Shown: positions 1,489 through 21,198 of the stretch, in pieces | How positions within the stretch are numbered: position 1 is the first letter of the stretch | Layout: each line of letters opens with the position of its first letter | From: Bolinopsis microptera | Taxonomy: Eukaryota > Ctenophora > Tentaculata > Lobata > Bolinopsidae | DNA: 64,000 nucleotides | Assembly: GCF_026151205.1 (NCBI RefSeq) | Contig: NC_087083.1 | Span: forward strand, 3,424,536-3,488,535 | Direction of reading: 5' to 3' | Made by a program: the position numbers and the translations under genes | Notes under the pieces: generated by a model | What the model was told of the DNA's origin: nothing | What the model saw: the letters and a program-made list of their open reading frames with translations, nothing else | Databases searched by the model: none

Positions 1489-2400
1489 ATTATAATATCG
1501 ATCCTTTTATTTTAAGGTAATTGGTTTGCAAACATGTAAAACTCCAGCAATCCTAAAACTTTGTCTAAGGATTGAGAAGGTGGTTAGTACCTGACAGTGT
1601 TAATATTAGAGAATTAGGTGAGATGAACAAAATTAAACCTTATTGAGAGAGCTTGAAATGATATTTTATATCATCAAGATCGCTTTGTTTCACGAATTTC
1701 ATTGTTGATGTCTCTGCAATTTTTACGTTTTTTCAAGTCAGCACTATCATCAAATTAAAATGAACATTTTGGTACTCGATAAAAGGCATACCCACAAGAA
1801 CCAGTATGATCCTACCTACCTGCTATGCCGAGAAGCATTTCGTTTAAAAGTTATAGTCGTTTTGCAGAGTTACAGAATAATAGCCACTGACGACGACACA
1901 GATACGTATACTACGTATTATATACGTATTATATACGTATTATACACGTAATATAAGGGGTGTGAAGAGATTTCAGGTTACAAGGCAAGAAACAAAATAA
2001 AACAATCTGTAGCACAGTACGCACAAAATGTATACATCTAACAAAATGGGTATTACAAGTACAACCAAGATTTTACCCGTACCAATCTTTCCATCCTATC
2101 ATCACACGAAAAAGTAATTTTCAGTGCACAAATTGCTAATTTAAATGATAATTGATATGACTATTCTTACTCTTAGGCAAATTATTGCGTTCTTTAATAC
2201 AACTGTGTGGTATAATATTCCGTTAAGAAATTTGTATTTGAAATAGTTCCAGGTCGATTTTGTGTATCATTTTTGTATAATTTTTCAATTCTAAAAAATA
2301 TCAAAATACTAATTGTTAAAAACTCTTTTCCTTACAAGATTCACTATAAAAGTTATTAGCATAATAGCAATACAAAAATGCTGTTCCGCTTTCTTAAACT

Positions 2401-2540
2401 ACAAAAAGACTTTTGCTATAGTAACGCGTGTGTTGCTAAAGTAACGCGTGTGTTGCTATAGTAACGCGTGTGTGTTGTTATAGTAACGCGTGTGTGTTGC
2501 TATAGTAACGCGCGTGTTGCTATAGTGACGAGTGTGTTGA
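2401..2540. repeat. 20-bp repeat with X-box-like core, copy 1
   Basis: Seven or so units of ttgctatagtaacgcgtgtg lying just past the stop of exon B on the minus strand. The gttgctatagtaac core resembles an RFX site. The same array is at 5399-5538. Confidence 0.85.
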
Positions 2541-2545
2541 CATGG

Positions 2546-2664
2546 TTACAATGTACCAACAGCTGCTCGTATAGCGCTAACGTCCATGTGGAACGCTGGT
2601 TTTCCTTCTTGAACACTAAAAAGCTTTCTCTGGAAGTACTCTCTGATGCAACTCATACCTGCAT
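2546..2664 (-). CDS. LRR gene alternative last exon B, copy 1
   Basis: The copy of 5544-5662 in the first unit of the 3-kb duplication, with identical reading frame and stop. It is the most downstream coding segment seen for this gene. Confidence 0.55.
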
Positions 2665-5600
2665 CTGAAAAAGATAGAGGAGGTTAGTTCTACAGTTTAA
2701 TAGGTAGGGAGAAGTTAGTTCTACAGTTTAATATGTAGGGAGAGGTTAGTTCTACAGTTTAATAGGTAGAGGAGGTTAGTTCTAAGGTTCTACAGTTTAA
2801 TAGGTAGGGAGAGGTTAGTTCTACAGTTTAATAGGTAGATAGAGGTTAGTTTTACAGTCTAATAGGTATATGTTAGTTCTACAGTTTAAAAGGTAGGGAG
2901 AGGTTAGTTTTACAGTTTAATAGGTAGGGAGAGGTTAGTTCTACAGTTTAATAGGTAGGGAGAGGTTAGTTCTACAGTTTAATAGGTAGAGGTTAGTTCT
3001 ACAGTTTAATATGTAGGGAGAGGTTAGTTCTACAGTTTAATAGGTAGGGAGAGGTTAGTTCTACAGTTTAATAGGTAGGGAGAGGTTAGTTCTACAGTTT
3101 AATAGGTAGGGAGAGGTTAGTTCTACAGTTTAATAGGTAGATAGAGGTTAGTTTTACAGTTTAATAGGTATATGTTAGTTCTACAGTTTAAAAGGTAGAG
3201 AGAGGTTAGTTTTACAGTTTAATAGGTAGGGAGAGGTTAGTTTTACAGTTTAATAGGTAGGGAGAGGTTAGTTCTACAGTTTAATAGGTAGGGAGAGATT
3301 AGTTTTACAGTTTAAAAGGTAGGGAGAGGTTAGTTCTACAGTTTAATAGGTAGGGAGAGGTTAGTTCTACAGTTTAATAGGTAGGGAGAGGTTAGTTCTA
3401 CAGTTTAATAGGTATATGTTAGTTCTACACGTATATCTAAATACAACATTCGTCTGATACGAAACTTTTTGAGATATTTTAGCCTAAATTACGAGTTAAG
3501 TTTAAATCAAGTTGAGTTAAAGCTTTAAAATAGGTGATGAAACTAAGGCTGGTTGCTATGACTACCATAATAATTAAACTAATGCAGGTGTGCAAAAGTT
3601 TGTTTTAGTGACTGTGTGACTACACGAATTGTAATTAGTTAATTGATGAATAATGCATAATGATGTTATTCGTGATGTTGCACCGCACGGCCCCGTCACT
3701 ATAGCAACCGTCGCGCAACGGGAATTCACCACTTGCGTGCGGCGCGACGGCATTTGTCTGAAGATCTCACCAGAGCGGCTAACGGGTCACAGAATGAGGG
3801 AGGAAGAGAAAGTGCTCTAAAATAACCTGTCAAATATATTGAAATGACAAGTAAGTGCGTTCTAGATTACTGAACTCATGCATACCTATCTTCAGCACAA
3901 CCAGGGGTCTTCACAAGATTAAGAGAGCCCCCTGTAGTTCCAACAGCTACTACATCAACTACTTGAAGAGTATGTTTTCCTTTATGTATACTAAAATATT
4001 TTCTCAGAAAATACTCTCGGATAGATTTCATGCCGGCACCTAGAACGTTCACAAAAATTAAAATACAGTGCTTCTATTTTAGTACGCGTTTCTCCTGCAT
4101 TTGATGTAAAATAAATCTTTATATGAATTATAATATTTTTGATCTGTATTATCTCCGAAATTTAGCTTATGACAAGAAATATTGGCAGAAATTACAATGA
4201 AGTTTTTAATATTTAGTTATTTGTTTTAGGGAAAGATTAGACTTGGGCGTTGTTTTTAACTATCCCTTGTTTAGAACTTTGATTTAATACTAATAGTTCC
4301 TCCCGTACCTCGCTGCTCGCGATCATTTTCTTAATAAAATGTTTCCCTCCCAAAAGTAGTTTCAGAAATCAGCCAAGATTTCAAACAAGGCCTTTCAAAC
4401 AGGGCCTTTTAAACAGAGCCTTTCAAACAGGGCCTTTCGGATGGGCCTTTTAAACAGGGCCTCCCAAACAGAGCCCTTTCAAGTTAATTATAATATCGAT
4501 CCTTTTATTTTAAGGTAATTGGTTTGCAAACATGTAAAACTCCAGCAATCCTAAAACTTTGTCTAAGGATTGAGAAGGTGGTTAGTACCTGACAGTGTTA
4601 ATATTAGAGAATTAGGTGAGATGAACAAAATTAAACCTTATTGAGAGAGCTTGAAATGATATTTTATATCATCAAGATCGCTTTGTTTCACGAATTTCAT
4701 TGTTGATGTCTCTGCAATTTTTACGTTTTTTCAAGTCAGCACTATCATCAAATTAAAATGAACATTTTGGTACTCGATAAAAGGCATACCCACAAGAACC
4801 AGTATGATCCTACCTACCTGCTATGCCGAGAAGCATTTCGTTTAAAAGTTATAGTCGTTTTGCAGAGTTACAGAATAATAGCCACTGACGACGACACAGA
4901 TACGTATACTACGTATTATATACGTATTATATACGTATTATACACGTAATATAAGGGGTGTGAAGAGATTTCAGGTTACAAGGCAAGAAACAAAATAAAA
5001 CAATCTGTAGCACAGTACGCACAAAATGTATACATATAACAAAATGGGTATTACAAGTACAACCAAGATTTTACCCGTACCAATCTTTCCATCCTATCAT
5101 CACACGAAAAAGTAATTTTCAGTGCACAAATTGCTAATTTAAATGATAATTGATATGACTATTCTTACTCTTAGGCAAATTATTGCGTTCTTTAATACAA
5201 CTGTGTGGTATAATATTCCGTTAAGAAATTTGTATTTGAAATAGTTCCAGGTCGATTTTGTGTATCATTTTTGTATAATTTTTCAATTCTAAAAAATATC
5301 AAAATACTAATTGTTAAAAACTCTTTTCCTTACAAGATTCACTATAAAAGTTATTAGCATAATAGCAATACAAAAATGCTGTTCCGCTTTCTTAAACTAC
5401 AAAAAGACTTTTGCTATAGTAACGCGTGTGTTGCTAAAGTAACGCGTGTGTTGCTATAGTAACGCGTGTGTGTTGTTATAGTAACGCGTGTGTGTTGCTA
5501 TAGTAACGCGCGTGTTGCTATAGTGACGAGTGTGTTGACATGGTTACAATGTACCAACAGCTGCTCGTATAGCGCTAACGTCCATGTGGAACGCTGGTTT

Positions 5601-8600
5601 TCCTTCTTGAACACTAAAAAGCTTTCTCTGGAAGTACTCTCTGATGCAACTCATACCTGCATCTGAAAAAGATAGAGGAGGTTAGTTCTACAGTTTAATA
5701 GGTAGGGAGAAGTTAGTTCTACAGTTTAATATGTAGGGAGAGGTTAGTTCTACAGTTTAATAGGTAGAGGAGGTTAGTTCTAAGGTTCTACAGTTTAATA
5801 GGTAGGGAGAGGTTAGTTCTACAGTTTAATAGGTAGATAGAGGTTAGTTTTACAGTCTAATAGGTATATGTTAGTTCTACAGTTTAAAAGGTAGGGAGAG
5901 GTTAGTTTTACAGTTTAATAGGTAGGGAGAGGTTAGTTCTACAGTTTAATAGGTAGGGAGAGGTTAGTTCTACAGTTTAATAGGGAGAGGTTAGTTCTAC
6001 AGTTTAATAGGTAGGGAGAGGTTAGTTCTACAGTTTAATAGGTAGGGAGAGGTTAGTTCTACAGTTTAATAGGTAGGGAGAGGTTAGTTCTACAGTTTAA
6101 TAGGTAGGGAGAGGTTAGTTCTACAGTTTAATAGGTAGATAGAGGTTAGTTTTACAGTTTAATAGGTATATGTTAGTTCTACAGTTTAAAAGGTAGAGAG
6201 AGGTTAGTTTTACAGTTTAATAGGTAGGGAGAGGTTAGTTTTACAGTTTAATAGGTAGGGAGAGGTTAGTTCTACAGTTTAATAGGTAGGGAGAGATTAG
6301 TTTTACAGTTTAAAAGGTAGGGAGAGGTTAGTTCTACAGTTTAATAGGTAGGGAGAGGTTAGTTCTACAGTTTAATAGGTAGGGAGAGGTTAGTTCTACA
6401 GTTTAATAGGTATATGTTAGTTCTACACGTATATCTAAATACAACATTCGTCTGATACGAAACTTTTTGAGATATTTTAGCCTAAATTACGAGTTAAGTT
6501 TAAATCAAGTTGAGTTAAAGCTTTAAAATAGGTGATGAAACTAAGGCTGGTTGCTATGACTACCATAATAATTAAACTAATGCAGGTGTGCAAAAGTTTG
6601 TTTTAGTGACTGTGTGACTACACGAATTGTAATTAGTTAATTGATGAATAATGCATAATGATGTTATTCGTGATGTTGCACCGCACGGCCCCGTCACTAT
6701 AGCAACCGTCGCGCAACGGGAATTCACCACTTGCGTGCGGCGCGACGGCATTTGTCTGAAGATCTCACCAGAGCGGCTAACGGGTCACAGAATGAGGGAG
6801 GAAGAGAAAGTGCTCTAAAATAACCTGTCAAATATATTGAAATGACAAGTAAGTGCGTTCTAGATTACTGAACTCATGCATACCTATCTTCAGCACAACC
6901 AGGGGTCTTCACAAGATTAAGAGAGCCCCCTGTAGTTCCAACAGCTACTACATCAACTACTTGAAGAGTATGTTTTCCTTTATGTATACTAAAATATTTT
7001 CTCAGAAAATACTCTCGGATAGATTTCATGCCGGCACCTAGAACGTTCACAAAAATTAAAATACAGTGCTTCTATTTTAGTACGCGTTTCTCCTGCATTT
7101 GATGTAAAATAAATCTTTATATGAATTATAATATTTTTGATCTGTATTATCTCCGAAATTTAGCTTATGACAAGAAATATTGGCAGAAATTACAATGAAG
7201 TTTTTAATATTTAGTTATTTGTTTTAGGGAAAGATTAGACTTGGGCGTTGTTTTTAACTATCCCTTGTTTAGAACTTTGATTTAATAGTTCCTCCCGTAC
7301 CTCGCTGCTCGCGATCATTTTCTTAATAAAATGTTTCCCTCCCAAAAGTAGTTTCAGAAATCAGCCAAGAAATCTTGACAATTCCAACGATCTCATCAAC
7401 GTACGAAAGATTCGTCAGATAATTTTTAAATGAATAAAAATATTAGTAACTGATCGGTAAACTGTTGTCAAGCTTTAAGAAGTGTTTTTCTCGAAAGTTT
7501 GCACCCTAGATTTTTAGCCAAGGTGACTTTATGCCTCAAGGCATAACAAAGCATTGGACCCAAGATCAACGTATCCAGAACCTCAGGGGGAGGGGGGGAC
7601 CTCAGGATGAAAACAGTTAGCCCCGAAACACTGTGGCCTACAGAAATTCAAGATTAAGCGAAGGAAGTGATACTTTTACTTTCAATGTCGCGGGAGCACG
7701 CAATTTTTGGGCACAACGCCTTGGCGCAGGAATTTACTGATAAATGAAAATCGAAATGTAAGCATTTTTATTTACAGCTCGATATTTTTTTCGAAAAATG
7801 ATTTCAAACCAGGAAATGCTCGATTACAGAAATGAGTGTTCTCAAAAAACTCTTTTTTTTGTGTGTGGGAATGATGCTTAAAACGATCACTGAACTTTCT
7901 GTGAAGTCACTCGACCTGGACGACACTAAACCCTGTTTTGGTGTATAATATACAGTATATATGGGTCCTTAATAGTTGTATTACATTTTTTGGTTAAATT
8001 TTCTATCCCAAAAATAACAGATGGAGATCGATATTGACAACAGTAGAAGTGTGTTGCTATGGTGATGTGAGTTTAACAAACCTATTATAGTATTATTAGG
8101 GTCCTCCATGGGATTGTTGGTACACTCAATAATGGAAATCTTGGAAAGTCGGACAATCTCCGCTGGCAGAGCAGATACTCCGTTATCAGCAAACCTGAAC
8201 TCCTGGAATATGTGTTAGCTAGTATTGGCAGAGCAGACACTCCGTTATCAGCAAACCTGAACTCCTGGAATATGTGTTATTTAGTATTGGCAGAGCAGAC
8301 ACTCCGTTATCAGCAAACCTGAACTCCTGGAATATGTGTTATTTAGTATTGGCAGAGCAGACACTCCGTTATCAGCAAACCTGAACTCCTGGAATATGTG
8401 TTAGCTAGTATTGGCAGAGCAGACACTCCGTTATCAGCAAACCTGAACTCCTGGAATATGTGTTAGCTAGTATTGGCAGAGCAGACACTCCGTTATCAAC
8501 AAACCTGAACTCCTGGAATATGTGTTATTTAGTATTGGCAGAGCAGACACTCCGTTATCAGCAAACCTGAACTCCTGGAATATGTGTTATTTAGTATTGG

Positions 8601-11600
8601 CAGAGCAGACACTCCGTTATCAGCAAACCTGAACTCCTGGAATATGTGTTATTTAGTATTGGCAGAGCAGACACTCCGTTATCAGCAAACCTGAACTCCT
8701 GGAATATGTGTTATTTAGTATTGGCAGAGCAGACACTCCGTTATCAGCAAACCTGAACTCCTGGAATATGTGTTATTTAGTATTGGCAGAGCAGACACTC
8801 CGTTATCAGCAAACCTGAACTCCTGGAATATGTGTTATTTAGTATTGGCAGAGCAGACACTCCGTTATCAGCAAACCTGAACTCCTGGAATATGTGTTAG
8901 CTAGTATTGGCAGAGCAGACACTCCGTTATCAACAAACCTGAACTCCTGGAATATGTGTTAGCTAGTATTGGCAGAGCAGACACTCCGTTATCAGCAAAC
9001 CTGAACTCCTGGAATATGTGTTATTTAGTATTGGCAGAGCAGACACTCCGTTATCAGCAAACCTGAACTCCTGGAATATGTGTTAGCTAGTATTGGCAGA
9101 GCAGACACTCCGTTATCAGCAAACCTGAACTCCTGGAATATGTGTTATTTAGTATTGGCAGAGCAGACACTCCGTTATCAGCAAACCTGAACTCCTGGAA
9201 TATGTGTTATTTAGTATTGGCAGAGCAGACACTCCGTTATCAGCAAACCTGAACTCCTGGAATATGTGTTATTTAGTATTGTAACTTGTTTTATTATAAT
9301 ACTAAAATAAAATAAATATTGTTTGTTTGGGGACCAGTTTTTGGTACACCGGCCAATGTTTAAAAATCATCAATCAAAAAACAAATTAATCAAAAAATAT
9401 TAGTAAAAGTAAAAGTACAGAAAGCATAATCTTGTTTCTCAAGGAGGAAGCAACTTACGGACAAATTGACCATCCCGTAGATAGTGGTGGGTAGTTTATC
9501 AAACGTGTTCCTGTTCAATATCAGACTCTGCAACAGGATAACTAGTCGTTATGGTAACAGGATAACTAGTTGTTATGGCAACATGATAACTAGTTGTTAT
9601 GGTAACAGGATAACTAGTTGTTATGGTAACAGGATAACTAGTTGTTATGGTAACAGGATAACTAGTTGTTATGGTAACAGGATAACTAGTTGTTATGGTA
9701 ACAGGATAACTAGTTGTTATGGTAACAGGATAACTAGTCGTTATGGTAACAGGATAACTAGTTGTTATGGCAACAGGATAACTAGTTGTTATGGTAACAG
9801 GATAACTAGTTGTTATGGTAACAGGATAACTAGTTGTTATGGTAACAGGATAACTAGTTGTTATGGTAACAGGATAACTAGTCGTTATGGTAACAGGATA
9901 ACTTGTTGTTATGGCAACAGGATAACTAGTTGTTATGGCAACAGGATAACTAGTTGTTATGGTAACATGATAACTAGTTGTTATGGTAACAGGATAACTA
10001 GTTGTTATGGTAACAGGATAACTAGTTGTTATGGCAACAGGATAACTAGTTGTTATGGCAACAGGATAACTTGTTGGTATGGCAACAGGATAACTAGTTG
10101 TTATGGTAACAGGATAACTAGTTGTTAGGGTAACAGGATAACTAGTTGTTATGGTAACATGATAACTAGTAGTTATGGTAACAGGATAACTAGTAGTTAT
10201 GGTAACATGATAACTAGTAGTTATGGTAACAGGATAACTAGTTGTTATGGTAACAGGATAACTTGTATTATATTAATCATCAATAATTAAATATTTAATT
10301 AGAGTGTCACATAGGTAGGTAGGTTCATCGTCCAATATTTAATAAAGTAAAACATTGATCCGATAATGTACGAAAGAGCACTATAAGATCTTAACACATA
10401 TCTTTATAAACTCTGAATACCTGAACGTTTCTAAGTTTGCCAATGTCACTAGGGATGGAGGAGATGTGACAGTCTGATATGTCGATGTACTGGAGGGACA
10501 CAGTTTCACACAGAGAGAGGGGCAAGTCTCTAAACTGGTTATGTGACAGGTCCACTATGAGGAGGTTACTGAGGGTTGAGAACCTGGCGGGAAGTTCTCT
10601 CAGACTGTTCTCTCTCAGATTCAGCACCTGTGTATTATCAGGGTAGTTGTTATGGTAACCTAGATATTATCAGGGTAGTTGTTATGGTAACCTGGGTATT
10701 ATCAGGGTAGTTGTTAGGGTAACCTGGGTATTATCAGGGTAGTTGTTAGGGTAACCTGGATATTATCAGGGTAGTTGTTATGGTAACCTGGATATTATCA
10801 GGGTAGTTGTTATGGTAACCTGGATATTATCAGGGTAGTTGTTATGGTAACCTGGGTATTATCAGGGTAGTTGTTATGGTAACCTGGATATTATCAGGGT
10901 AGTTGTTATGGTAACCTGGATAATATCAGAGTAGTTGTTATGGTAACCTGGGTATTATCAGGGTAGTTGTTATGGTAACCTGGATATTATCAGGGTAGTT
11001 GTTATGGTAACCTGGATATTATCAGGGTAGTTGTTATGGTAACCTGGGTATTATCAGGGTAGTTGTTATGGTAACCTGGATATTATCAGAGTAGTTGTTA
11101 TGGTAACCTGGATATTATCATGGTAGTTGTTAGGGTAACCTGGATATTATCATGGTAGTTGTTATGGTAACCTGGATATTATCAGGGTAGTTGTTATGGT
11201 AACCTGGGTATTATCAGGGTAGTTGTTATGGTAACCTGGATATTATCAGGGTAGTTGTTATGGTAACCTGGATATTATCAGGGGTAGTTGTTATGGTAAC
11301 CTGGATATTATCAGGGTAGTTGTTAGGGTAACCTGGATATTATCAGGGTAGTTGTTAGGGTAACCTGGATATTATCAGGGTAGTTGTTAGGGTAACCTGG
11401 ATATTATCAGGGTAGTTGTTATGGTAACCTGGATATTATCAGGGTAGTTGTTATGGTAACCTGGATATTATCAGGGTAGTTGTTATGGTAACCTGGATAT
11501 TATCAGGGTAGTTGTTATGGTAACCTGGATATTATCAGGGTAGTTGTTATGGTAACCTGGATATTATCAGGGTAGTTGTTATGGTAACCTGGATATTATC

Positions 11601-12740
11601 AGGGTAGTTGTTAGGGTAACCTGGATATTATAAGGGTAGTTGTTAGGGTAACCTGGATAATATCAGGGTAGTTGTTATGGTAACCTGGATATTATCAGGG
11701 TAGTTGTTAGGGTAACCTGGATATTATCAGGGTAGTTGTTAGGGTAACTAATAGTTACTAACTAGTATCTAGTTGTTTTAGCTGAGAACCTGCAAGAAGT
11801 TAAGGCTGGTTACAGTTTCTAGCCCTGCTCCAATCGTAATGAACTCTGTACTGTATAACTATAGCAACCCCCCCCCCTCCACACTGATCTGCAGGTTTGC
11901 AACTATAGCAACCCCCCCACACTGATATGCAGGTTTGTAACTATAGCAACCACCCACACTGATCTGCAGGTTTGTAACTATAGCAACCACCCACACTGAT
12001 CTGCAGGTTTGTAACTATAGCAACCCCCCACACTGACCTGCAGGTTTGTAACTATAGCAACCCCCCACACTGACCTGCAGGTTTGCAACTACAGCAACCC
12101 CCCCCCCACACTGATCTGCAGGTTTGTAACTATAGCAACCCCCCCCCACACTGATATGCAGGTTTGTAACTATAGCAACCACCCACACTGATCTGCAGGT
12201 TTGTAACTATAGTAACCACCCACACTGATATGCAGGTTTGTAACTATAGCAACCCCCCACACTGACCTGCAGGTTTGTAAGGTCACAGATCTTGTCTGGG
12301 ATCCACTTGAGTCCGTTACCGGAACACTGCAACTCCCGGATACAGTTCAACTTTAATATCTCCTCCGGAAATACCTGTTAGAGCGCTGTATTTTATACGT
12401 TCGTTTAATATCTAAAAGGAATATGAATAATGAATATGCCTCTTAAAATAAATAAGAGGAAATTACCATTTCCAATTCTCATAAAGCTTGTACAATTTAA
12501 AACGCAGCTCGTATATAGTATGTATAGTAACAGTTTATAGTAACAGTACTAGCTCGTACGGATAAGTTGTTGTTGCTGATGTTCAGTGTTCGGAGGTTGT
12601 AAAGCCACTCAAAGGTTTCAGGCAGCTTGTGGAGTGCGAGTTTGTTGATGCTGAGATCTCTCATTCCATACAACTGTCCAATACTATCCGGCAACCCAAC
12701 GAACCTGAATATGATCGTGAGGTAGAGAGTATATAATACA

Positions 12741-12774
<34 letters not shown>

Positions 12775-15700
12775 GAGAGTATATAATAAACTAATATATA
12801 AGTTGAGAGAATTAACATTTAAGTTGAGAGTTTGACTGTATCTATATAGCTATATGTAGAATTGTAGATTGTATATTAAAGGCCCCAAAACACTTGACTA
12901 GCAATAATTCACCCGTTGCTACCGACAAAACACTTGACTAGTAATAATTTACCCGTTGCTACCGACAAAACACTTGACTAGCAATAATTTACCCGTTTAA
13001 TTGCTTCCGACAAAACACTTGACTAGCAATAATTTACCCGTTGCTACCGACAAAACACTTGACTAACAATAATTTACCCGTTGCTTCCGATTCGTAGATC
13101 GTCTAGCTCAGCTGCTAAAGGTAACACTTCAGGGAAGTTATCTATCTTGTTGCCCTCCAGCCACAGCCTGTCCAGGTACTTCAACTGTCCTGAATAATAG
13201 ATACTATACAGGGTGTACAATGTACACTGTACATGTAACAATGCATCTCATGCATACAAAAGCAAAACCTTGCAATCCTTAGCTCCTTGATTCAAACATA
13301 CATATATATATATACTTTCAACACTACTATATAACAAATAATTTGAGGATGACTGTAAAGGTACATTTTACCGACATTTGAAGTCAAGGCGTTGTTTTAC
13401 TGATAGTTGTGGCTAACTAATAATATATATATATATATATACAACTACGAGCTAGGCACATGTAAGGATTACACAGGATTACACGTCATGTAAGTGATCA
13501 TAACCTATATATATATACATTACCTAAATATATATTACCTATATCTAGTAGTGTAACTATGGTTACCTATATATATTACCTATATCTAGTAGTGTAACTA
13601 TGGTAACTAGTAGTGTAACTATGGTTACCTATATATATATTACCTATATCATCAGCAACCTCCTCGATCTCATTGAAGCTGAGACTGATCATCCTTAATC
13701 CCTGTATCTTGTGTATGCAGGTCGGTACAAACTTAAAAGCGTTCTTCTCAAGTCCAAGCACCTGCAAAGAGCTGTTAGTTTAAATCACTAAAATTACACA
13801 ATAAATATCCTAATCTCTTTATAAATATGTAAATAAATCACCCAGTAAACACTAGAAATATACAGCTCTACCAGCAAAGAAAGAAGAGTTCATGTTTTAT
13901 ATAGTTAAAAGCGTTCTTCTCAAGGCCTAGCACCTGAAGAGTTGTTAGTTTAAACTACTAAAATAACACAAGAAATATCCTAATCTCTTTATATACTTTT
14001 ATAAATCACCCAGTAAACACTATAAATATACAACTCTACCAGCAAAGAAAGTAGAGTTCATATTTTATATAGTTGCTATGACTACCATACTAATGGTAAA
14101 GTTGAAGGCAGCTCAGTTGGATCCTACCTCCAGAGTGGATATAGCCTCCATAGACGAAGGTAGTCCTCGTAGCTTGTTCTGACTGAGGATCAGGATCACC
14201 AGGTTCATAAACTCGCCCATGTTCTCCGGCAGTGCCATCAGCTCGTTACCGTGCAGGTTCAGTATCTGGGAGCTGTTAGTTAACTTGTTACCGTGCAGGT
14301 TCAGTATCTGGGAGCTGTTAGTTATAACTTGTTACCGTGCAGGTTCAGTATCTGGGAGCTGTTTTGTCACGGTTAGTTATAACTTCTGCATCACTTCATG
14401 TCTTATTATATAATATTCTTCATGTCTTATTATATATTAATGTCTTAGCCAATATTAAATGTTTGAGAAGGTTTAGTTTAAAGAAAAAACCTCCAGTCCC
14501 TCCATGAGCGGCAGCTCGTCAGGTATTTTAGTGAGCTTGTTGTTTCTCACAGATAGGCGTCTGATACTGTGACACCGTGACAGAAACTCCGGCAGCTCTG
14601 TCAGCAAGTTTCCGTCCAGATAAAGGGTCTTGAGGCACCGCAACTGCTCCAACTCTTTGGGGAGCTCTTTGAGCTTGTTCCTGGCGACGCTCAAACACTC
14701 AATGTGCCGCATGTTCACAATTGCGGGAGGTAGCTCTGTCAGCCTGTTCGCGCTCATGTCTAAAATCTGAAGAAATGTTAACTCAAACAGTGTAGTTTTA
14801 AAACTAGTCGTGGGTAACTATGGGTAACTATGAAATAACCAATCCAAGCACTGTCGATAAAGGTTTCCAATCCTGTCTTATCTATTCCACAACACATAAA
14901 ACTGACGAATAACAGCTAGCTGGTATCTCGCCTTGAGGAAGGGGAGCTGGCACTCACCTTGAGGAAGGGGAGCTGGTACTCACCTTGAGGAAGGGGAGCT
15001 GGCACTCACCTTGAGGAAGGGGAGCTGGTACTCACCTGGAGGAAGGGGAGCTGGTACTCACCTTGAGGAAGGGGAGCTGGTACTCACCTCGAGGAAGGGG
15101 AGCTGGTACTCACCTGGAGGAAGTGGAGCTGGTACTCACCTTGAGGCAGGGGAGCTGGCACTCACCTTGAGGAAGTGGAGCTGGTACTCACCTTGAGGCA
15201 GGGGAGCTGGCACTCACCTTGAGGCAGGGGAGCTGGTACTCACCTTGAGGAAGGGGAGCTGGGACTCACCTTGAGGAAGTGGAGCTGGTACTCACCTTGA
15301 GGAAGGGGAGCTGGTACTCACCTTGAGGAAGTGGAGCTGGTACTCACCTTGAGGAAGGGGAGCTGGTACTCACCTTGAGGAAGGGGAGCTGGTACTCACC
15401 TTGAGGAAGGGGAGCCGGTACTCACCTTGAGGAAGGGGAGCTGGCACTCACCTTGAGGAAGGGGAGCTGGTACTCACCTCGAGGAAGGGGAGCTGGTACT
15501 CACCTCGAGGAAGGGGAGCTGGCACTCACCTTGAGGAAGGGGAGCTGGTACTCACCTTGAGGAAGGGGAGCTGGTACTCACCTTGAGGAAGGGGAGCTGG
15601 TACTCACCTTGAGGAAGGGGAGCTGGTACTCACCTTGAGGAAGGGGAGCTGGTACTCACCTTGAGGAAGGGGAGCTGGTACTCACCTTGAGGAAGGGGAG

Positions 15701-18700
15701 CTGGTACTCACCTTGAGGAAGGGGAGCTGGCACTCACCTTGAGGAAGGGGAGCTGGTACTCACCTCGAGGAAGGGGAGCTGGTACTCACCTTGAGGAAGG
15801 GGAGCTGGCACTCACCTTGAGGAAGGGGAGCTGGTACTCACCTCGAGGAAGGGGAGCTGGTACTCACCTTGAGGAAGGGGAGCTGGTACTCACCTTGAGG
15901 AAGGGGAGCTGGTATTTACCTTGAGAAAGGGGAGCTGGTACTCGCCTTGAGGAAGGGGAGCTGGTATTTACCTTGAGAAAGGGGAGCTGGTACTCACCTT
16001 GAGGAAGGGGAGCTGGCACTCACCTTGAGTAAGGGGAGCTGGTATTTACCTTGAGAAAGGGGAGCTGGCACTCACCTTGAGGAAGGGGAGCTGGTACTCA
16101 CCTTGAGGAAGGGGAGCTGGCACTCACCTTGAGGAAGGGGAGCTGGTACTCACCTTGAGTAAGGGGAGCTGGCACTCACCTTGAGGAAGGGGAGCTGGCA
16201 CTCACCTTGAGTAAGGGGAGCTGGTATTTACCTTGAGAAAGGGGAGCTGGTACTCGCCTTGAGGAAGGGGAGCTGGTATTTACCTTGAGAAAGGGGAGCT
16301 GGTACTCACCTTGAGGAAGGGGAGCTGGCACTCACCTTGAGTAAGGGGAGCTGGTATTTACCTTGAGAAAGGGGAGCTGGCACTCACCTTGAGGAAGGGG
16401 AGCTGGTACTCACCTTGAGGAAGGGGAGCTGGTACTCACCTTGAGGAAGGGGAGCTGGCACTCACCTTGAGGCAGGGGAGCTGGTACTCACCTTGAGGAA
16501 GGGGAGCTGGTACTCACCTCGAGGAAGGGGAGCTGGTACTCACCTTGAGGAAGGGGAGCTGGCACTCACCTTGAGGAAGGGGAGCTGGTACTCACCTTGA
16601 GGAAGGGGAGCTGGTACTCACCTTGAGGAAGGGGAGCTGGTACTCACCTGGAGGAAGGGGAGCTGGTACTCACCTTGAGGAAGGGGAGCTGGTACTCACC
16701 TCGAGGAAGGGGAGCTGGTACTCACCTTGAGGAAGGGGAGCTGGTACTCACCTTGAGGAAGGGGAGCTGGTATTTACCTTGAGAAAGGGGAGCTGGTACT
16801 CGCCTTGAGGAAGGGGAGCTGGTATTTACCTTGAGAAAGGGGAGCTGGTACTCACCTTGAGGAAGGGGAGCTGGCACTCACCTTGAGTAAGGGGAGCTGG
16901 TATTTACCTTGAGAAAGGGGAGCTGGCACTCACCTTGAGGAAGGGGAGCTGGTACTCACCTTGAGGAAGGGGAGCTGGCACTCACCTTGAGGAAGGGGAG
17001 CTGGTACTCACCTTGAGGAAGGGGAGCTGGTACTCACCTTGAGGAAGGGGAGCTGGCACTCACCTTGAGGAAGGGGAGCTGGTACTCACCTCGAGGAAGG
17101 GGAGCTGGTACTCACCTCGAGGAAGGGGAGCTGGTACTCACCTTGAGGAAGGGGAGCTGGTACTCACCTTGAGGAAGGGGAGCTGGTACTCACCTCGAGG
17201 AAGGGTAGCTGGCACTCACCTCGAGGAAGGGGAGCTGGTACTCACCTTGAGGAAGGGGAGCTGGTACTCACCTTGAGGAAGGGGAGCTGGTACTCACCTC
17301 GAGGAAGGGGAGCTGGCACTCACCTCGAGGAAGGGTAGCTGGCACTCACCTCGAGGAAGGGGAGCTGGTACTCACCTTGAGGAAGGGGAGCTGGTACTCA
17401 CCTTGAGGAAGGGGAGCTGGTACTCACCTCGAGGAAGTGGAGCTGGTACTCACCTTGAGGCAGGGGAGCTGGCACTCACCTTGAGGAAGGGGAGCTGGCA
17501 CTCACCTTGAGTAAGGGGAGCTGGTACTCACCTTGAGGAAGGGGAGCTGGTACTCACCTTGAGGAAGGGGAGCTGGCACTCACCTTGAGGAAGGGGAGCT
17601 GGCACTCACCTTGAGTAAGGGGAGCTGGTATTTACCTTGAGAAAGGGGAGCTGGTACAGTTGATTAGGTATCTGAGAGAAAGTGTTCCCGTACAATTTAC
17701 CGTGTTCCATTACTCGACCTGAAAGAAGTCATTTATTACAGTGAATAAAAATCCCATAGTTACCATAGTTACACTACTAGTTACCATAGTTACACTACTA
17801 GCTACCATAATTACCATAGTTACACTACTAGTTACCATAGTTACACTACTAGCTACCATAGTTACACTACTAGTTACCATAGTTACACTACTAGCTACCA
17901 TAGTTACACTACTAGTTACCATAGTTACACTACTAGCTACCATAGTTACACTACTAGTTACCATAGTTACACTACTAGCTACCATAGTTACACTACTAGT
18001 TACCATAGTTACACTACTAGCTACCATAGTTACACTACTATTTACAGTGAATATAAATCCAACTCTGTTCCACTAATAGGTTCACATTTTAAAAGCTCAG
18101 TGGAATGAGGAAGGAGGCTGACTGATGATATGGTTGCAGTGACTGTTTGTTGAGTCACCTAGTGGTCGCTTAGCAACCTAGTGGTCGCTTAGCAACGTAA
18201 GCCTTAACAAACAACCCCACAATGGTAATGATCATAATTTGCATCTGCTCCACTATTGGCAGCAATGATTTGTTCTATCGCTCATGAAACTATTCGATTA
18301 CCCAATTTCGATTGATTAAATTGTTGTTAAAATGATTTTATTGGTCACCCCCTGGAAACTAAAAAACTCAAAATTAGTTTGTTTTATGGTTTATTTGTTG
18401 TTTATTAAAATAGCATTCTACTCACCGATGTAAACCTCCTGTAGGTGAATCAGTAGTTCAATATTGTCCAGTGATTCCAGTTTGTTCCTAGACAGGTCTA
18501 TCCACTGAAAGGAGATTATGAGAAGTGAAATTTAAGTGAAATTTAAGTGAAATTTAAGTGAAATTTAAGTGAAACTTAAGTGAAATTTAAACAACCTGTC
18601 ATCATATCCACAAAAATTCTAGAAAGTAATTAAAAGAAATATTGTCTCATCCCAACTATTAGCGATACTTTTCTTTCTTGTTCCCATGTTGATTGTTGAT

Positions 18701-20947
18701 AATAAGATAACATTTTACTTCAATTATCAATAGTATAGTTGATATTGTTGATATTGTTGATATCGTTGATATCGTTGATATCGTTGATATCGTTGATATC
18801 GTTGATATCGTTGATATCGTTGATATCGTTGATATCGTTGATATCGTTGATATCGTTGATATCGTTGATATCGTTGATATTGTTGATATCGTTGATATTG
18901 TTGATATTGTTGATGTTGTTGATATTGTTGATATTGTTGATATTGTTGATATTGTTGATATTGTTGATATTGTTGATATTGTTGATATTGTTGATATTGT
19001 TGATATTGTTGATATTGTTGATATTGTTGATATTGTTGATATTGTTGATATTGTTGATATTGTTGATATTGTTGATATTGTTGATATTGTTGATATTGTT
19101 GATGTTGTTGATGTTGTTGATATTGTTGATATTGTTGATATTGTTGATATTGTTGATATTGTTGATGTTGTTGATGTTGTTGATATTGTTGATATTGTTG
19201 ATATTGTTGATGTTGTTGATATTGTTGATATTGTTGATATTGTTGATATTGTTGATATTGTTGATATTGTTGATATTGTTGATATTGTTGATATTGTTGA
19301 TATTGTTGATATTGTTGATATTGTTGATATTATTGATATTGTTGATATTGTTGATATTGTTGATATTGTTGAAAGTTTAATAACATTTTACTACAGTAAC
19401 ATAGTGTTCTAACCGTACACTGCTGCATGTCACTATTGTAACATATCTCCTCCGGAATTGATGTTAACTTCTTCAGCCCCAGACCTATGCCTATCTTACC
19501 ATCACTACGCTCCTTTATTGATACCTGCATTTTACCTGAGACAGGGTGAATGTTAGTTATTATAGCAAACATCTGGGGTATTGCTCATGAACTAAACTTA
19601 TTGTATCCTCAATTTAACTTGAAATCTGAGCTTGCTATGTTAATTTAACAATTTGTATAGTAGTTACCCATAGTTACCCATAGTTACCCATAATTACCCA
19701 TAGTTACCCATAACTACCCATAATTACCCATAACTACCCATAATTACCCATATTTACCCATATTTACCTATAATTACCCATAGTTACCTATAGTTAACCA
19801 TAATTACCCATATTTACCCATATTTACCTATAGTTACCCATAGTTACCCATAGTTACCCATAGTTACCCACAATTACCCTTAGTTACCCAAAGTTACCCA
19901 AAGTTACCCAAAGTTACCCATAGTTACCCATAGTTACCCATAGTTGAAGTAAGCACACTTCTAGATGACAGGTTCCTGTAAGGTAACAAATCGTTTTTGA
20001 GAACTGTAAAGTTGTCGAATATGTGAGTTTCCTTCATTCTGTACAACATGTCAACCTGTGTCATCTGAAAAAGAGAGCTGCAGGGGGGGGGGGGGGGTGG
20101 GGTTACACTATAGTTAGAGAGACAGGGGGGGGGGGGGCTGAAAGAGAGACAGGGTAGTGTGTTTTGGTATTCGGTGCTTGCTTTCAGTTCAGGTGTATTT
20201 GATATAGAACTAGAAGTACTTACAGTTTAGGTAAAGCCCCCCCCCCCCCCCTGTAGCTCCACTGTGTAGTTTACCCCCCCCCCCTGTAGCTCCACTTATA
20301 TATCTTTTAAAAACTTAATTATCATCCTTGCTTCGACATGCTACTAATCTATAACTACACACAATATTATACTATATACTACTACATACTTCCTATATTG
20401 GAGTTCATTATAAGATTATAGTCAGGGTTACGTAATTCTCTGTCTCTCTTTGTAGTTAATAATATTGTTGCCATGGTAACACTAATCTTTAAAGAGGACA
20501 GATGGTATCACATTACATTCTTTCAGTTTGCTGCTTTCAACTTAGATTTGGGTTTTAGGACTTGCTGTTGTGATTTTTGTAGCACTGTTAACTCTACACT
20601 GAGTCTACAGTATTTGATAAGTTCTAAATAGGGGGGGGGGGGGGGGCTGAAAGAGAGACAGGGTTGTGTGTTTTGGTATTCTTGCCAAGGGGGGGGGGGG
20701 AGGGGGGGTCTGAAAGAGAGACAGGGTCGTATGTTTTGGTATTCTTGACAAGGGGGGGGGGGGGGGGGGGGGGGGGGGGAGAGGGGGTGTTTAGTGTTTA
20801 CTATACCGATAGTTCGAGTACGCCCCCATCCTTGACCATGGGTTTAACTTTTAGATCACTAATTCTCTGAAGCCGTTCCATGTGATCCTTCACCTCCAGC
20901 TGGGAACGCCTCTGAAAGTTGGGCTGTGTGCTCTGTCCACTACCCAT
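2546..20947 (-). CDS. Leucine-rich-repeat protein gene, at least 16 exons, alternative last exons
   Basis: Reconstructed gene with exons (high to low coordinate) 20807-20947, 19938-20064, 19414-19535, 18426-18504, 17636-17718, 14491-14766, 14128-14265, 13644-13761, 13078-13189, 12560-12704, 12267-12374, 11790-11858, 10421-10627, 9459-9527, 8082-8202, then one of 6874-7037, 5544-5662, 3876-4039 or 2546-2664. The product is about 690 residues. It begins MGSGQS, matching the N-myristoylation pattern (Gly2, Ser6), which suggests membrane attachment. After about 100 non-LRR residues come roughly 18 LRRs of the short LxxLPxxI type, ending in a cap-like segment. Phases agree at every join except that the acceptor of the twelfth exon is weak. 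The LRR class is typical of intracellular scaffold proteins, but I cannot assign orthology. Intron arrays are described separately. The gene is divergent from the NACHT-WD gene at 24240. Confidence 0.85.
2681..3428. repeat. 31-bp minisatellite, copy 1
   Basis: About 24 units containing ggttagttctacagtttaat followed by aggtagggaga. It lies between exons A1 and B1. No splice-site derivation is evident. Confidence 0.95.
3876..4039 (-). CDS. LRR gene alternative last exon A, copy 1
   Basis: The copy of 6874-7037 carried by the first unit of the 3-kb tandem duplication, identical as far as I can see. It is usable only if splicing skips about 4 kb beyond exon 15. Confidence 0.55.
5544..5662 (-). 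CDS. LRR gene alternative last exon B, copy 2
   Basis: The acceptor ctttttcag is followed by 39 residues starting AGMSCIREYFQRKLFSV and a TAA at 5544-5546. It joins exon 15 in the same phase as exon A, giving a shorter, different C-terminus. The shared IREYFxRKxFS core shows that A and B arose by exon duplication. Confidence 0.65.
5679..6426. repeat. 31-bp minisatellite, copy 2
   Basis: Duplicate of 2681-3428 with only two base changes, although tandem arrays normally diverge fast. This argues that the 3-kb duplication is very young or an assembly artefact. Confidence 0.95.
6874..7037 (-). CDS. LRR gene alternative last exon A, copy 2
   Basis: The acceptor cgttctag joins exon 15 in the right phase (I-I-G|AGMKSIREYF). 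About 53 residues follow, then TGA at 6874-6876. The pattern MxxIREYF after the last LRR is typical of LRR proteins. A possible donor (GATAG|gtatgc) lies just before the stop, so this exon could also be internal. It is paralogous to exon B. Confidence 0.7.
7371..8081. other. Intron between exon 15 and exon A2
   Basis: Unique AT-rich sequence with a short G-rich tract near 7590. No gene or repeat seen. Confidence 0.5.
8082..8202 (-). CDS. LRR gene exon 15 (last LRR and cap)
   Basis: 121 bp, entering in phase 0 and leaving in phase 1. It encodes EFRFADNGVSALPAEI then a cap-like CTNNPMEDPNNTII. The acceptor catattccag plus the first 40 exon bases recurs 18 times upstream in a 62-bp array. Only this copy continues into the complete exon. 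The donor is ATAG|gtttgt. Confidence 0.88.
8165..9290. repeat. 62-bp array of 18 copies of the exon-15 acceptor
   Basis: Units start every 62 bp (8165, 8227, 8289 and so on to 9219). On the gene strand each holds about 22 nt of intron ending atattccag and 40 nt of exon beginning GAGTTCAGGTTTGC. Only the lowest-coordinate unit runs on into the full exon. Reading through two units hits TAA, so only the last acceptor gives the LRR protein. Confidence 0.95.
9459..9527 (-). CDS. LRR gene exon 14
   Basis: Exactly one LRR in 69 bp (SLILNRNTFDKLPTTIYGM), phase 0 to 0. The acceptor cctgttgcag sits at the end of the 24-bp array 9528-10268. The donor TGTCC|gtaagt is strong. Confidence 0.85.
9528..10268. 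repeat. 24-bp array abutting the exon-14 acceptor
   Basis: About 31 units of gttatggtaacaggataact plus agtt. On the gene strand the unit contains ttatcctgttacc, and the true acceptor reads ttatcctgttgcag. The array is thus built from the pyrimidine side of the acceptor, without the AG. The long plus-strand open frame here is only the repeat translated. Confidence 0.93.
10421..10627 (-). CDS. LRR gene exon 13
   Basis: 207 bp, phase 0 to 0, encoding three LRRs (VLNLRENSLRELPARF, LIVDLSHNQFRDLPLSL and LQYIDISDCHISSIPSDI). The donor is TTCAG|gtattc. The acceptor taatacacag is the end unit of a 32-bp acceptor-like array (10628-11752). Confidence 0.92.
10628..11752. repeat. 32-bp array of exon-13 acceptor-like units
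   Basis: About 35 units. On the gene strand each ends ctaccctgataatatccag, matching the true acceptor ctgataatacacag. The other half of each unit carries the X-box-like gttgttatggtaac. Copies differ mainly at t/g in gttatgg/gttaggg. Confidence 0.95.
11790..11858 (-). CDS. LRR gene exon 12 (tentative)
   Basis: Encodes TEFITIGAGLETVTSLNFLQ, which fits the second half of an LRR. The donor is TTGCAG|gttctc in phase 0. The only phase-0 acceptor seen is gctatag at 11859, with a purine-rich tract in front. The better-looking atacag at 11851 would give the wrong phase. One to three LRR residues seem missing at the join, so an additional small exon inside the array is possible. Confidence 0.45.
11872..12290. 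repeat. 34-35-bp array of exon-11 donor copies
   Basis: About 11 units. The gene-strand core is AAACCTGCAG|gtcagtgtggg. Intact GT donors remain at the true site and near 12034 and 12069. Most others read cagatcag or catatcag, so GT is lost. The unit also contains a homopolymeric C run of variable length. Confidence 0.92.
12267..12374 (-). CDS. LRR gene exon 11
   Basis: 108 bp, phase 0 to 0, encoding FPEEILKLNCIRELQCSG then GLKWIPDKICDLTNLQ. The donor CTGCAG|gtcagt is the core of the array of about 11 units that fills the intron. Most downstream copies have lost the GT (gt to at). Confidence 0.85.
12560..12704 (-). CDS. LRR gene exon 10
   Basis: 145 bp, entering in phase 2 and leaving in phase 0. 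It encodes GLPDSIGQLYGMRDLSI and LRTLNISNNNLS (two LRRs). The acceptor is catattcag and the donor TATCC|gtacga is weak. Confidence 0.8.
12890..13085. repeat. 40-bp array of exon-9 donor copies
   Basis: Five units including the true junction, each with GTAGCAACGG|gtaaat on the gene strand (one has an insertion, one reads gtgaat). Confidence 0.9.
13078..13189 (-). CDS. LRR gene exon 9
   Basis: 112 bp, entering in phase 1 and leaving in phase 2. It encodes LDRLWLEGNKIDNFPEVL, then a second LRR start (LDDLRIGSNG). The donor AGCAACGG|gtaaat is repeated about five times into the intron (12890-13085). Confidence 0.85.
13500..13650. repeat. Triplicated exon-8 donor
   Basis: GATATAG|gtaatata recurs three times on the gene strand, separated by the short motif gttacactactag. 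The motif also makes the array at 17755-18050. Confidence 0.85.
13644..13761 (-). CDS. LRR gene exon 8
   Basis: 118 bp, entering in phase 0 and leaving in phase 1. It encodes VLGLEKNAFKFVPTCI and MISLSFNEIEEVADDI (two LRRs). The acceptor ctctttgcag lies in a duplicated block of about 172 bp (13738-14080). The donor GATATAG|gtaata is repeated three times downstream (13500-13650). Confidence 0.88.
13738..14080. repeat. Duplicated exon-8 acceptor block, about 172 bp
   Basis: Two copies (13738-13909 and 13910-14080) share aaagcgttcttctcaag and the intron upstream, at roughly 90 percent identity. Each has a usable AG (ctttgcag and actcttcag) and the first 25 or so exon bases. Confidence 0.9.
14128..14265 (-). 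CDS. LRR gene exon 7
   Basis: 138 bp, phase 0 to 0, encoding two LRRs (ILNLHGNELMALPENM and VILILSQNKLRGLPSSM). The donor is GGAG|gtagga. The acceptor cagctcccag plus the first 20 or so exon bases is present in three tandem copies upstream (14255-14365). Confidence 0.9.
14255..14365. repeat. Triplicated exon-7 acceptor
   Basis: Three copies of gene-strand cagctcccag|ATACTGAACC followed by TGCACGgtaac. In the two upstream copies CACG|gtaaca would serve as a donor, so each is a potential 16-nt micro-exon. Confidence 0.9.
14491..14766 (-). CDS. LRR gene exon 6
   Basis: The largest internal exon, 276 bp in phase 0 at both ends. It encodes four consecutive LRRs, among them ILDMSANRLTELPPAI and LKTLYLDGNLLTELPEFL, of 23 residues each. 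The acceptor is atttcttcag and the donor is GGAG|gttttt, a poor match beyond GT. Confidence 0.92.
14927..17660. repeat. 26-bp array: about 105 copies of the exon-5 5' splice site
   Basis: On the gene strand each unit is CAGCTCCCCTTCCTCAAG followed by gtgagtac: 18 bases of exon end plus a near-perfect donor (AAG|gtgagt). Variants are CTCGAG|gtgagt, CTGGAG|gtgagt and CTCAAG|gtaaat. A few have lost GT (gcgagt). The array fills nearly all of the intron between exons 5 and 6. The true in-frame junction uses the weaker gtaaat. Confidence 0.97.
17636..17718 (-). CDS. LRR gene exon 5, donor seeds the 26-bp array
   Basis: An 83-bp exon: acceptor cttctttcag, donor CTCAAG|gtaaat, entering in phase 1 and leaving in phase 0. 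It encodes GNTFSQIPNQLYQLPFLK, an LRR half. The last 18 exon bases plus the donor are the repeat unit of the 2.7-kb array that fills the following intron. Reading past this donor meets a stop within the next unit, so this junction must be used to keep the frame. Confidence 0.85.
17755..18050. repeat. 21-bp array with a 42-bp higher-order unit
   Basis: About 14 units of ttaccatagttacactacta in which the next bases alternate strictly g-t-t and g-c-t. The array therefore expanded as dimers. It lies in the intron 5' of exon 5. Confidence 0.93.
18426..18504 (-). CDS. LRR gene exon 4
   Basis: A 79-bp exon between ctcctttcag and CATCG|gtgagt, entering in phase 0 and leaving in phase 1. It encodes WIDLSRNKLESLDNIELL, a clear LRR with the LxLSxNxL signature. 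Confidence 0.85.
18530..18592. repeat. 11-bp repeat (aagtgaaattt)
   Basis: Five or six units lying just upstream of the exon-4 acceptor on the gene strand. Confidence 0.85.
18739..19378. repeat. 9-bp array (gttgatatt), about 71 copies
   Basis: The low-coordinate end is made of gttgatatc units, so each junction has a CG. The rest is gttgatatt, with TG. Open frames across it are repeat translations. Confidence 0.95.
19414..19535 (-). CDS. LRR gene exon 3
   Basis: The acceptor ccctgtctcag is followed by a 122-bp exon (2 nt plus 40 codons) encoding a basic stretch, then GLGLKKLTSIPEEIC, the first LRR-like segment. The donor TACG|gttaga is in phase 0. Confidence 0.75.
19660..19946. repeat. 10-bp array (tagttaccca) at the exon-2 donor
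   Basis: About 28 units. On the gene strand each is ACTATGG|gta, identical to the proposed exon-2 donor. Confidence 0.9.
19938..20064 (-). CDS. LRR gene exon 2
   Basis: The acceptor ctttttcag is followed by ATGACACAGGTTGAC in phase 0. The exon gives about 42 residues including MLYRMKETHIFDNF, with no recognised domain. The donor is uncertain: ATGG|gtaact at 19938 or AGAA|gtgtgc at 19959. Both leave phase 1, as exon 3 needs. If the first is used, the intron begins with a tandem array of that same donor. Confidence 0.6.
20067..20300. repeat. Poly-G and poly-C tracts with gagagacaggg motif
   Basis: Runs of 10-15 G at 20086 and 20127, and of C at 20237 and 20273, inside intron 1. They can form G-quadruplexes on either strand. 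Confidence 0.8.
20467..20480. promoter_or_regulatory. Perfect RFX X-box palindrome in intron 1
   Basis: GTTGCCATGGTAAC, 467 bp inside the LRR gene from its ATG, matches the best RFX sites in both half sites. RFX family targets are commonly ciliary genes. Its use is inferred. Confidence 0.5.
20630..20790. repeat. G-run repeat, about 64-bp units
   Basis: Two to three units of ctgaaagagagacagggt plus gtgttttggtattc, separated by runs of 10-26 G. Assembled run lengths are likely unreliable. Confidence 0.8.
20807..20947 (-). CDS. LRR gene exon 1 (start codon)
   Basis: ATG at 20947 opens 47 codons beginning MGSGQSTQ, followed by a charged, probably helical stretch (QLEVKDHMERLQR). The donor ATCG|gtatag is in phase 0. 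The start is chosen because Gly2 and Ser6 fit the N-myristoyl consensus and a palindromic repeat array lies directly upstream. There is no LRR in this exon. Confidence 0.7.
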
Positions 20948-20954
20948 ATCTCTA

Positions 20955-21198
20955 TAAGTTATCAGTATTTACATTAATGTAAAGTGATCTACAACTCTAC
21001 GAGTTATCAGTATTTACATTAATGTAAAGTGATCTACAACTCTATAAGTTATCAGTATTTACATTAATGTAAAGTGTTCTACAACTCTATAAGTTATCAG
21101 TATTTACATTAATGTAAAGTGTTCTACAACTCTATAAGTTATCAGTATTTACATTAATGTAAAGTGATATACAATTCTATAAGTTATCAGTTTAGGGT
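20955..21198. promoter_or_regulatory. 45-bp repeat with 16-bp palindrome upstream of LRR gene
   Basis: Units begin at 20958, 21003, 21048, 21093, 21138 and 21183 (partial). Each full unit holds the perfect palindrome TTTACATTAATGTAAA. The array ends about 10 bp from the start codon, so it is promoter or 5' UTR. A dimeric, TAAT-binding factor would fit. That is inference. Confidence 0.6.

Follow-up and report, generated by a model that had tools for sequence, protein, structure and literature searches.

Here, we describe an LRR gene of the ctenophore Bolinopsis microptera in which nine of the 17 minisatellite arrays found by TRF overlap an exon-intron junction, with 2 to 39 exonic bases included. 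Five donors (exons 2, 5, 8, 9 and 11) and four acceptors (exons 7, 8, 12 and 14) are spanned, and this overlap exceeds chance in the gene under both null models that were applied. We put at roughly 70% the reading that these are mirage-type minisatellites of ordinary birth, which started across a boundary, were tolerated there, and are anchored or re-seeded by the boundary copy.

A first-pass annotation of the same DNA had noticed arrays at the junctions of this gene, on donor and acceptor sides alike, with boundaries inside units of differing length. TRF finds the arrays that it named for the gene and bears out each of these points (units of 10 to 168 bp), its exons 13, 14 and 15 being exons 12, 13 and 14 of our model. 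Its unit lengths (10, 26, about 50, 172, 40, 34, 32 and 62 bp) come close to those of TRF (10, 26, 44, 168, 40, 37, 32 and 62 bp), although some differ.

The LRR gene

The window is a stretch of 64,000 nucleotides (NC_087083.1:3424536-3488535), and genome searches covered the assembly of 264.65 Mb in 232 contigs. Positions without a locus name are those of the window, and the gene and all arrays described with it lie on the minus strand. The LRR gene (7984..20947) was modelled with 14 exons encoding 648 aa. Exons 1-7 are at 20947-20807, 20064-19938, 19535-19414, 18504-18426, 17718-17636, 14766-14491 and 14265-14128, and exons 8-14 at 13761-13644, 13189-13078, 12704-12560, 12374-12267, 10627-10421, 9527-9459 and 8202-7984. 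All 13 introns are GT-AG and a single open frame of 648 aa runs through the model, which stops at the stop codon of the last open frame; an additional 3' exon is possible.

The predicted product matches the Pfam families LRR_14 (3.2e-45) and LRR_8 (8.5e-40), and its best solved relative is SHOC-2 (7sd0, 3.3e-65), with two overlapping alignments. One of these (residues 246-574) is gapless across junctions 6/7 to 12/13, and the other (residues 172-545) is gapless at 5/6 and has a one-residue gap at 8/9. At each of the junctions 5/6 to 12/13, one or both alignments preserve the predicted LRR register; since LRRs are repetitive, this supports the repeat register and not orthology. For exons 1-4 and for the acceptor of exon 14, junctions are predicted from reading frame and splice consensus alone. 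A genome search of the assembly saw neither a further copy of the gene nor another haplotype, and a protein search found no orthologue of its N-terminal part (residues 1-170) at E<=0.001 among 194 candidates. An automatic exon predictor (codon scores plus LRR hints), considered as a genome-wide junction caller, was dropped; its best setting gave 10 of the 26 junctions of this gene, where it tended to pick decoy splice sites. Adjoining the gene is a reverse-transcriptase frame with a full-length match in Mnemiopsis leidyi at 79% identity; among the 120 matches listed, five are NCBI-named, all from Mnemiopsis leidyi.

Arrays at the junctions

No intron of the model is free of arrays, one of which has just 1.9 copies; 17 of the 26 junctions are without a spanning array, and eight of the 17 arrays, that at exon 13 among them, do not overlap a junction. 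The TRF units of the nine junction arrays measure, from exon 2 to exon 14, 10, 26, 44, 168, 62 (exon-8 donor), 40, 37, 32 and 62 bp. Boundary copies within introns were counted at several flank settings, which demanded 8 to 16 exonic bases of a donor and 8 to 12 of an acceptor; in the motifs below, a slash marks the boundary.

The clearest junction array of the gene is that of the exon-5 donor (14918..17657), in which a unit of 20 exonic and 6 intronic bp recurs in 105 copies over 2.7 kb; at the three flank settings, 53, 94 and 93 boundary copies were counted in the intron. The authentic boundary is CTCAAG/GTAAAT, and the copies in the 26-bp array are mostly CTCAAG/GTGAGT. The series of variants beside the exon turns up again, as one block, in three parts of the interior, so the exon edge has a common history with interior copies. 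At the exon-2 donor (19661..19945), the 10-bp unit has 28.5 copies with 8 exonic bp around the boundary ATGG/GTAACT, which was counted 27 times at 8+8 bp and 5, then 0 times with a longer exonic flank. The other donors gave lower counts at the same three settings: 2, 0 and 0 for the exon-8 array (13503..13648; unit of about 62 bp, 2.3 copies), 4, 3 and 2 for the exon-9 array (12886..13090; 40-bp unit, 5 copies) and 10, 10 and 10 for the exon-11 array (11857..12280; 37-bp unit, about 11 copies), where GT is present in 2 of 10 boundary copies and missing from the other 8.

On the acceptor side, the exon-7 array (14245..14363; 44-bp unit, 2.8 copies) has 2 boundary copies at both of its flank settings, and the exon-14 array (8164..9281; 62-bp unit, 18 copies), which includes 39 bp of exon, has 17 at both. 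The exon-8 acceptor lies in a duplication of a 168-bp unit in 2 copies (13733..14074), and the exon-12 acceptor array (10626..11748; 32-bp unit, 35 copies) comes from the 3' end of intron 11. With 2 exonic bases, the latter has the smallest exonic overlap, followed by the exon-8 donor array with 5. Boundary copies of the exon 8, 12 and 13 acceptors numbered 0 at 8 to 12 exonic bases; other flank settings gave 34 copies for exon 12 and one variant copy for exon 8 (CTTCAG/GTG for TTGCAG/GTG).

The exon-13 array (9532..10263; 24-bp unit, 30.5 copies) is adjacent and not spanning: as had been said of it at first pass, it abuts the acceptor, ending 4 bp before the exon. Two more arrays lie 38 bp off a junction in intron 4 (17757..18045; 21/42-bp unit) and 41 bp off in intron 3 (18734..19372; 9-bp unit). 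Upstream of the coding sequence, a 45-bp unit in 5.4 copies (20950..21191) ends 2 bp before the start codon (20947).

The expansions had been taken to be independent throughout. Two array pairs have unit sequence in common (a 16-mer in the exon-12 and exon-13 acceptor arrays, an inverted 40-mer in the exon-8 donor and intron-4 arrays), and they are therefore not all independent; unit sequence apparently travels from intron to intron within the gene. Searched over 264.65 Mb, the dimer of the 26-bp unit has 34 exact matches, all within the exon-5 array, and a motif common to the 24- and 32-bp arrays has 35, all in the LRR gene. Confined as they are to the gene, these patterns mark three arrays as local products and not as copies of a dispersed element, which was set aside as the source of the arrays on this exact search (two patterns, three arrays). 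By eye, a GTTRCTATRGTAAC-like core is common to the arrays at 2413, 9532, 10626, 11857 and 17757. Exact GTTRCYATRGYAAC occurs five times in the window and once in 262 kb of other loci.

Decoy splice sites

Copies with GT/GC or AG in the nine arrays present 192 decoy splice sites. Used in place of the authentic site, 128 of them would give a frameshift, 63 would stay in frame but meet a stop, and one, at the exon-7 acceptor, would be productive. In the 26-bp array, 101 of 104 parsed units start with GT and 3 with GC; 73 of the 103 exon-5 decoy donors read AAG/GTGAGT, nearer the general consensus than the authentic AAG/GTAAAT. With decoys that match better, correct splicing of exon 5 is not obvious and is itself a question.

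Comparison with chance and with other loci

In the seed null, the arrays were collapsed to one unit each and one-unit seeds were dropped on the collapsed LRR gene. Of 16 arrays, 3.96 were expected to span a junction and nine do (P(>=9)=0.0034); restricting the test to the 12 arrays with 2.3 copies or more lowered the expectation to 2.56 (P(>=8)=0.00045); and uniform placement of the 16 arrays within introns, with spanning arrays counted as distance 0, gave Fisher p=1.4e-8, all of these P values being optimistic (post hoc) because the gene was chosen for showing the pattern.

Twenty loci of 10 kb were taken from 80 LRR matches, with short open frames favoured, before arrays were searched for, and two flanks of the window were added. 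Minisatellites (period at least 7, at least 2.5 copies) make up 14.2% of these 22 stretches. Two other LRR loci, L023 and L012, in which exons were called by eye from LRR matches and reading frame, have three spanning arrays and one detached relative. Two arrays of L023 span a junction: one, with a 74-bp unit, covers an acceptor, and the other, of 66 copies of a 46-bp unit, covers a donor and includes 29 exact CTCAG/GTTAGT. L012 has a spanning donor array with a 22-bp unit (44 bp in TRF) and 9 exact GCTGAG/GTTAGT; a further array there, with units of about 70 bp, carries copies with TTTGCAG/GTGAAC (6 exact) and ends about 170 bp upstream of the authentic exon. On inspection, no junction was seen inside arrays near the LRR matches of L014, L016, L019, L022, L025 and L029, some of which (e.g. 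L016) lack a clear exon beside the array. At L013:5582-6053, a 68-bp array extends into the 3' flank with about seven repeats of the stop codon and approximately the last 60 coding bases, and such arrays can thus arise at a border other than a splice site.

Some other arrays of the window lie in and around a NACHT-WD gene. A 31-bp array of 127 copies (24301-28237) fills most of its apparent first intron; it starts a few bases past the donor, without exon sequence, and shares a 15-mer with the 48-bp array that precedes it. A 32-bp array (32431-32652) starts directly after an apparent in-frame TAG of the NACHT-WD reading frame. At 48230-48470 there is an interstitial telomere-like array of 40 TAACCC units.

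Myosin loci served as controls. In the myosin heavy-chain gene L031 (14 exons, modelled by hand), none of seven arrays spans a junction and three lie within 11 bp of one. Over the myosin loci, the distance to a junction falls below the 10% chance level for 5 of 15 arrays (binomial p=0.013, Fisher p=0.063), the 15 probabilities having been computed by hand and then combined. These 15 come from a total of 32 arrays (L031 7/7, L032 1/2, L033 3/8, L034 4/7, L035 0/8); the remainder lie between unresolved exons, and the junctions of L032-L034 are approximate (tblastn ends). L031 also has two similar consecutive exons, at 2614-2806 and about 2866-3088, which are apparently mutually exclusive (VIQYFASICGV, VVSYFASVCGV).

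A further test used array units outside the LRR gene (period 8-200, at least 2.5 copies) and needed no gene models. The best donor-like and acceptor-like score of each unit was compared with non-array segments of equal length and, for composition, with the reversed unit; the matrices were generic and not trained on Bolinopsis microptera, and the L012 and L023 arrays were part of the set. Among 133 arrays, the top decile held 24 donor-like units against 13 reversed and 22 acceptor-like against 9 (Wilcoxon p=0.0019 and 0.00011). Once related units had been removed, 99 arrays were left, with 19 donor-like units against 12 reversed and 16 acceptor-like against 9 in the top decile (paired Wilcoxon p=0.0055 and 0.0053). 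By source, top-decile donors and acceptors numbered 17 and 20 of 96 in the LRR loci and flanks (p=0.014 and 0.0012), 5 and 1 of 21 in the window outside the LRR gene (p=0.052 and 0.89), and 3 and 2 of 20, not significant, in the myosin loci. The focal LRR gene had 3 donors (p=0.11) and 1 acceptor (p=0.72) among 12, so its units are not clearly splice-rich.

Origin of the junction arrays

What, then, might have produced these arrays? We propose that a short tandem duplication straddling an exon-intron boundary would copy some exon bases along with the splice site, and would then grow through the unequal exchange or slippage usual for minisatellites, in a genome rich in them. The extra copies would survive because normal mRNA is still made from the outermost authentic site, the remaining copies being removed as part of the intron. 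With selection acting on protein and splicing alike, the authentic boundary would stay constant and could be a permanent anchor copy, and junction arrays would then persist or be re-seeded more often than purely intronic ones. Normal splicing, this order of events and the anchor effect are what we infer for the LRR gene. Tolerance is enough for junction arrays to exist, as a boundary-straddling duplication would be cheap so long as the outer site is the one used, and the arrays at stop and start codons fit the same rule. Tolerance alone predicts fewer junction arrays than are seen in the LRR gene: the nine of 16 against 3.96 expected, together with the excess of splice-like motifs outside the gene, point beyond it, and anchoring by the boundary copy would be the simplest addition.

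That surplus could also come from the splice junctions themselves, if breaks or slippage linked to transcription or splicing (e.g. R-loops) started duplications preferentially there. The excess over the seed null and over uniform placement fits such directed seeding, as do the motif excess in the 99 non-redundant arrays outside the gene and the unusual nearness of 5 of 15 myosin arrays to junctions. We nevertheless think it unlikely, given that none of the seven L031 arrays spans a junction, that neither LRR-gene nor myosin units are clearly splice-rich, that start and stop codons are also spanned or abutted by arrays, and that the loci were sampled non-randomly, for LRR or myosin matches. With L031 lacking a spanning array, seeding directed by splice sites is suggested and not demonstrated. 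The first-pass annotation had named seeding at splice sites as a candidate; it has gained modest statistical support and is not contradicted, but stop- and start-codon borders are involved as well (L013, 32431, 20950).

Error in the gene model or the assembly, in the form of unreal boundaries or misassembled arrays, is very improbable. The boundaries are predicted from sequence, long arrays are difficult to assemble, and beside the LRR gene a stretch with the same three arrays occurs twice, at 1907-3414 and 4905-6412, about 3 kb apart, either because it was duplicated recently or through an artefact of assembly or haplotype. Against this stand the open frame of 648 aa over 14 exons with GT-AG introns, the LRR register kept against SHOC-2, and the similar arrays at L012 and L023.

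We give equally little credence to the arrays being relics of introns born by tandem duplication of exonic AG/GT segments, on the Rogers model. Units that run from GT to AG do resemble an intron (exon-5, exon-12, L012 and L023 arrays). On inspection, however, the introns of the LRR gene are not bounded on both sides by copies of a duplicated segment: boundary copies stand at one end and other sequence at the opposite end, and in intron 11 the arrays at the two ends are different.

Least probable of all is selection for redundant splice sites, another candidate of the first-pass annotation, which would account for GT being kept in 101 of 104 parsed 26-bp units but which is disfavoured by the 191 of 192 decoys that would lead to a frameshift or premature stop, by the eight of 10 exon-11 copies without GT, and by the 17 of 26 junctions without a spanning array.

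Returning to birth across a boundary with tolerance and anchoring, we tentatively entertain a wider conjecture, to which we would give less than even odds by some distance: that splice junctions are preferred sites of minisatellite birth or retention in ctenophores and, independently, in amphioxus, with the frozen boundary as a permanent seed from which many introns periodically regain repeats of their own splice sites; units running from GT to AG would also allow a second splicing step to take out mis-spliced copies. That a ctenophore has mirages, packed densely into one gene and found at further loci too, suggests that boundary expansion recurs in distant animals. Junction arrays thereby provide a testable route by which introns could lengthen and decoy splice sites arise, and exon 5 offers a natural test of splice-site choice, its authentic donor facing about 100 copies of which 73 of 103 match the consensus better.

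Comparison with known systems

Introners are dispersed intron-making elements, and as such put repeats that carry splice sites into introns. Whereas an introner unit occurs at many loci, the units of three arrays occur, as exact patterns, only in the LRR gene.

Intron gain by tandem duplication of an AGGT-containing exon, following the Rogers model, is described in excerpts of a report on potato RdRp (PMC4974935). The ctenophore arrays are likewise tandem duplications that carry AG/GT proto-splice sites; unlike those of Rogers-type gain, their copies stand at one end of an existing intron, and no new intron is shown.

The closest parallel is amphioxus. The first-pass annotation had named no described process for seeding at splice sites, but excerpts of two papers on amphioxus (PMC3087553; PMC3902484) already name the phenomenon, as mirages, and term its mechanism unclear. 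Mirages are presented there as tandem duplications resembling minisatellites, in which the exon-intron boundary, at either end of the intron, is part of the repeat (PMC3087553). The cases are Adh3, the globins BflGb6 and BflGb9, troponin C and PGBD5 (PMC3087553; PMC3902484); the PGBD5 paper adds the last as a further amphioxus mirage and cites troponin C (PMC3902484). For Adh3, units of 10-72 bp are given, against about 150-160 bp for the globins, with AG/GT in many but not all copies (PMC3087553). In the open-licence literature we found no report of mirages in ctenophores, and the cases found were all from amphioxus. The same excerpts report for amphioxus that regular splicing is not disturbed and that array length is polymorphic (PMC3087553), whereas the ctenophore arrays are known from sequence alone. 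The ctenophore gene differs also in extent, with nine of 26 junctions affected and up to 105 copies, and in belonging to another phylum. In other respects it resembles the amphioxus genes: the units of nine arrays contain the exon-intron boundary, 5' ends (five donors) and 3' ends (four acceptors) of introns are affected, unit length varies from 10 to 168 bp, and AG/GT is present in many copies but not all. As every mirage feature that we tested was found in the ctenophore, we regard the arrays as mirages from an additional phylum and not as a new kind.
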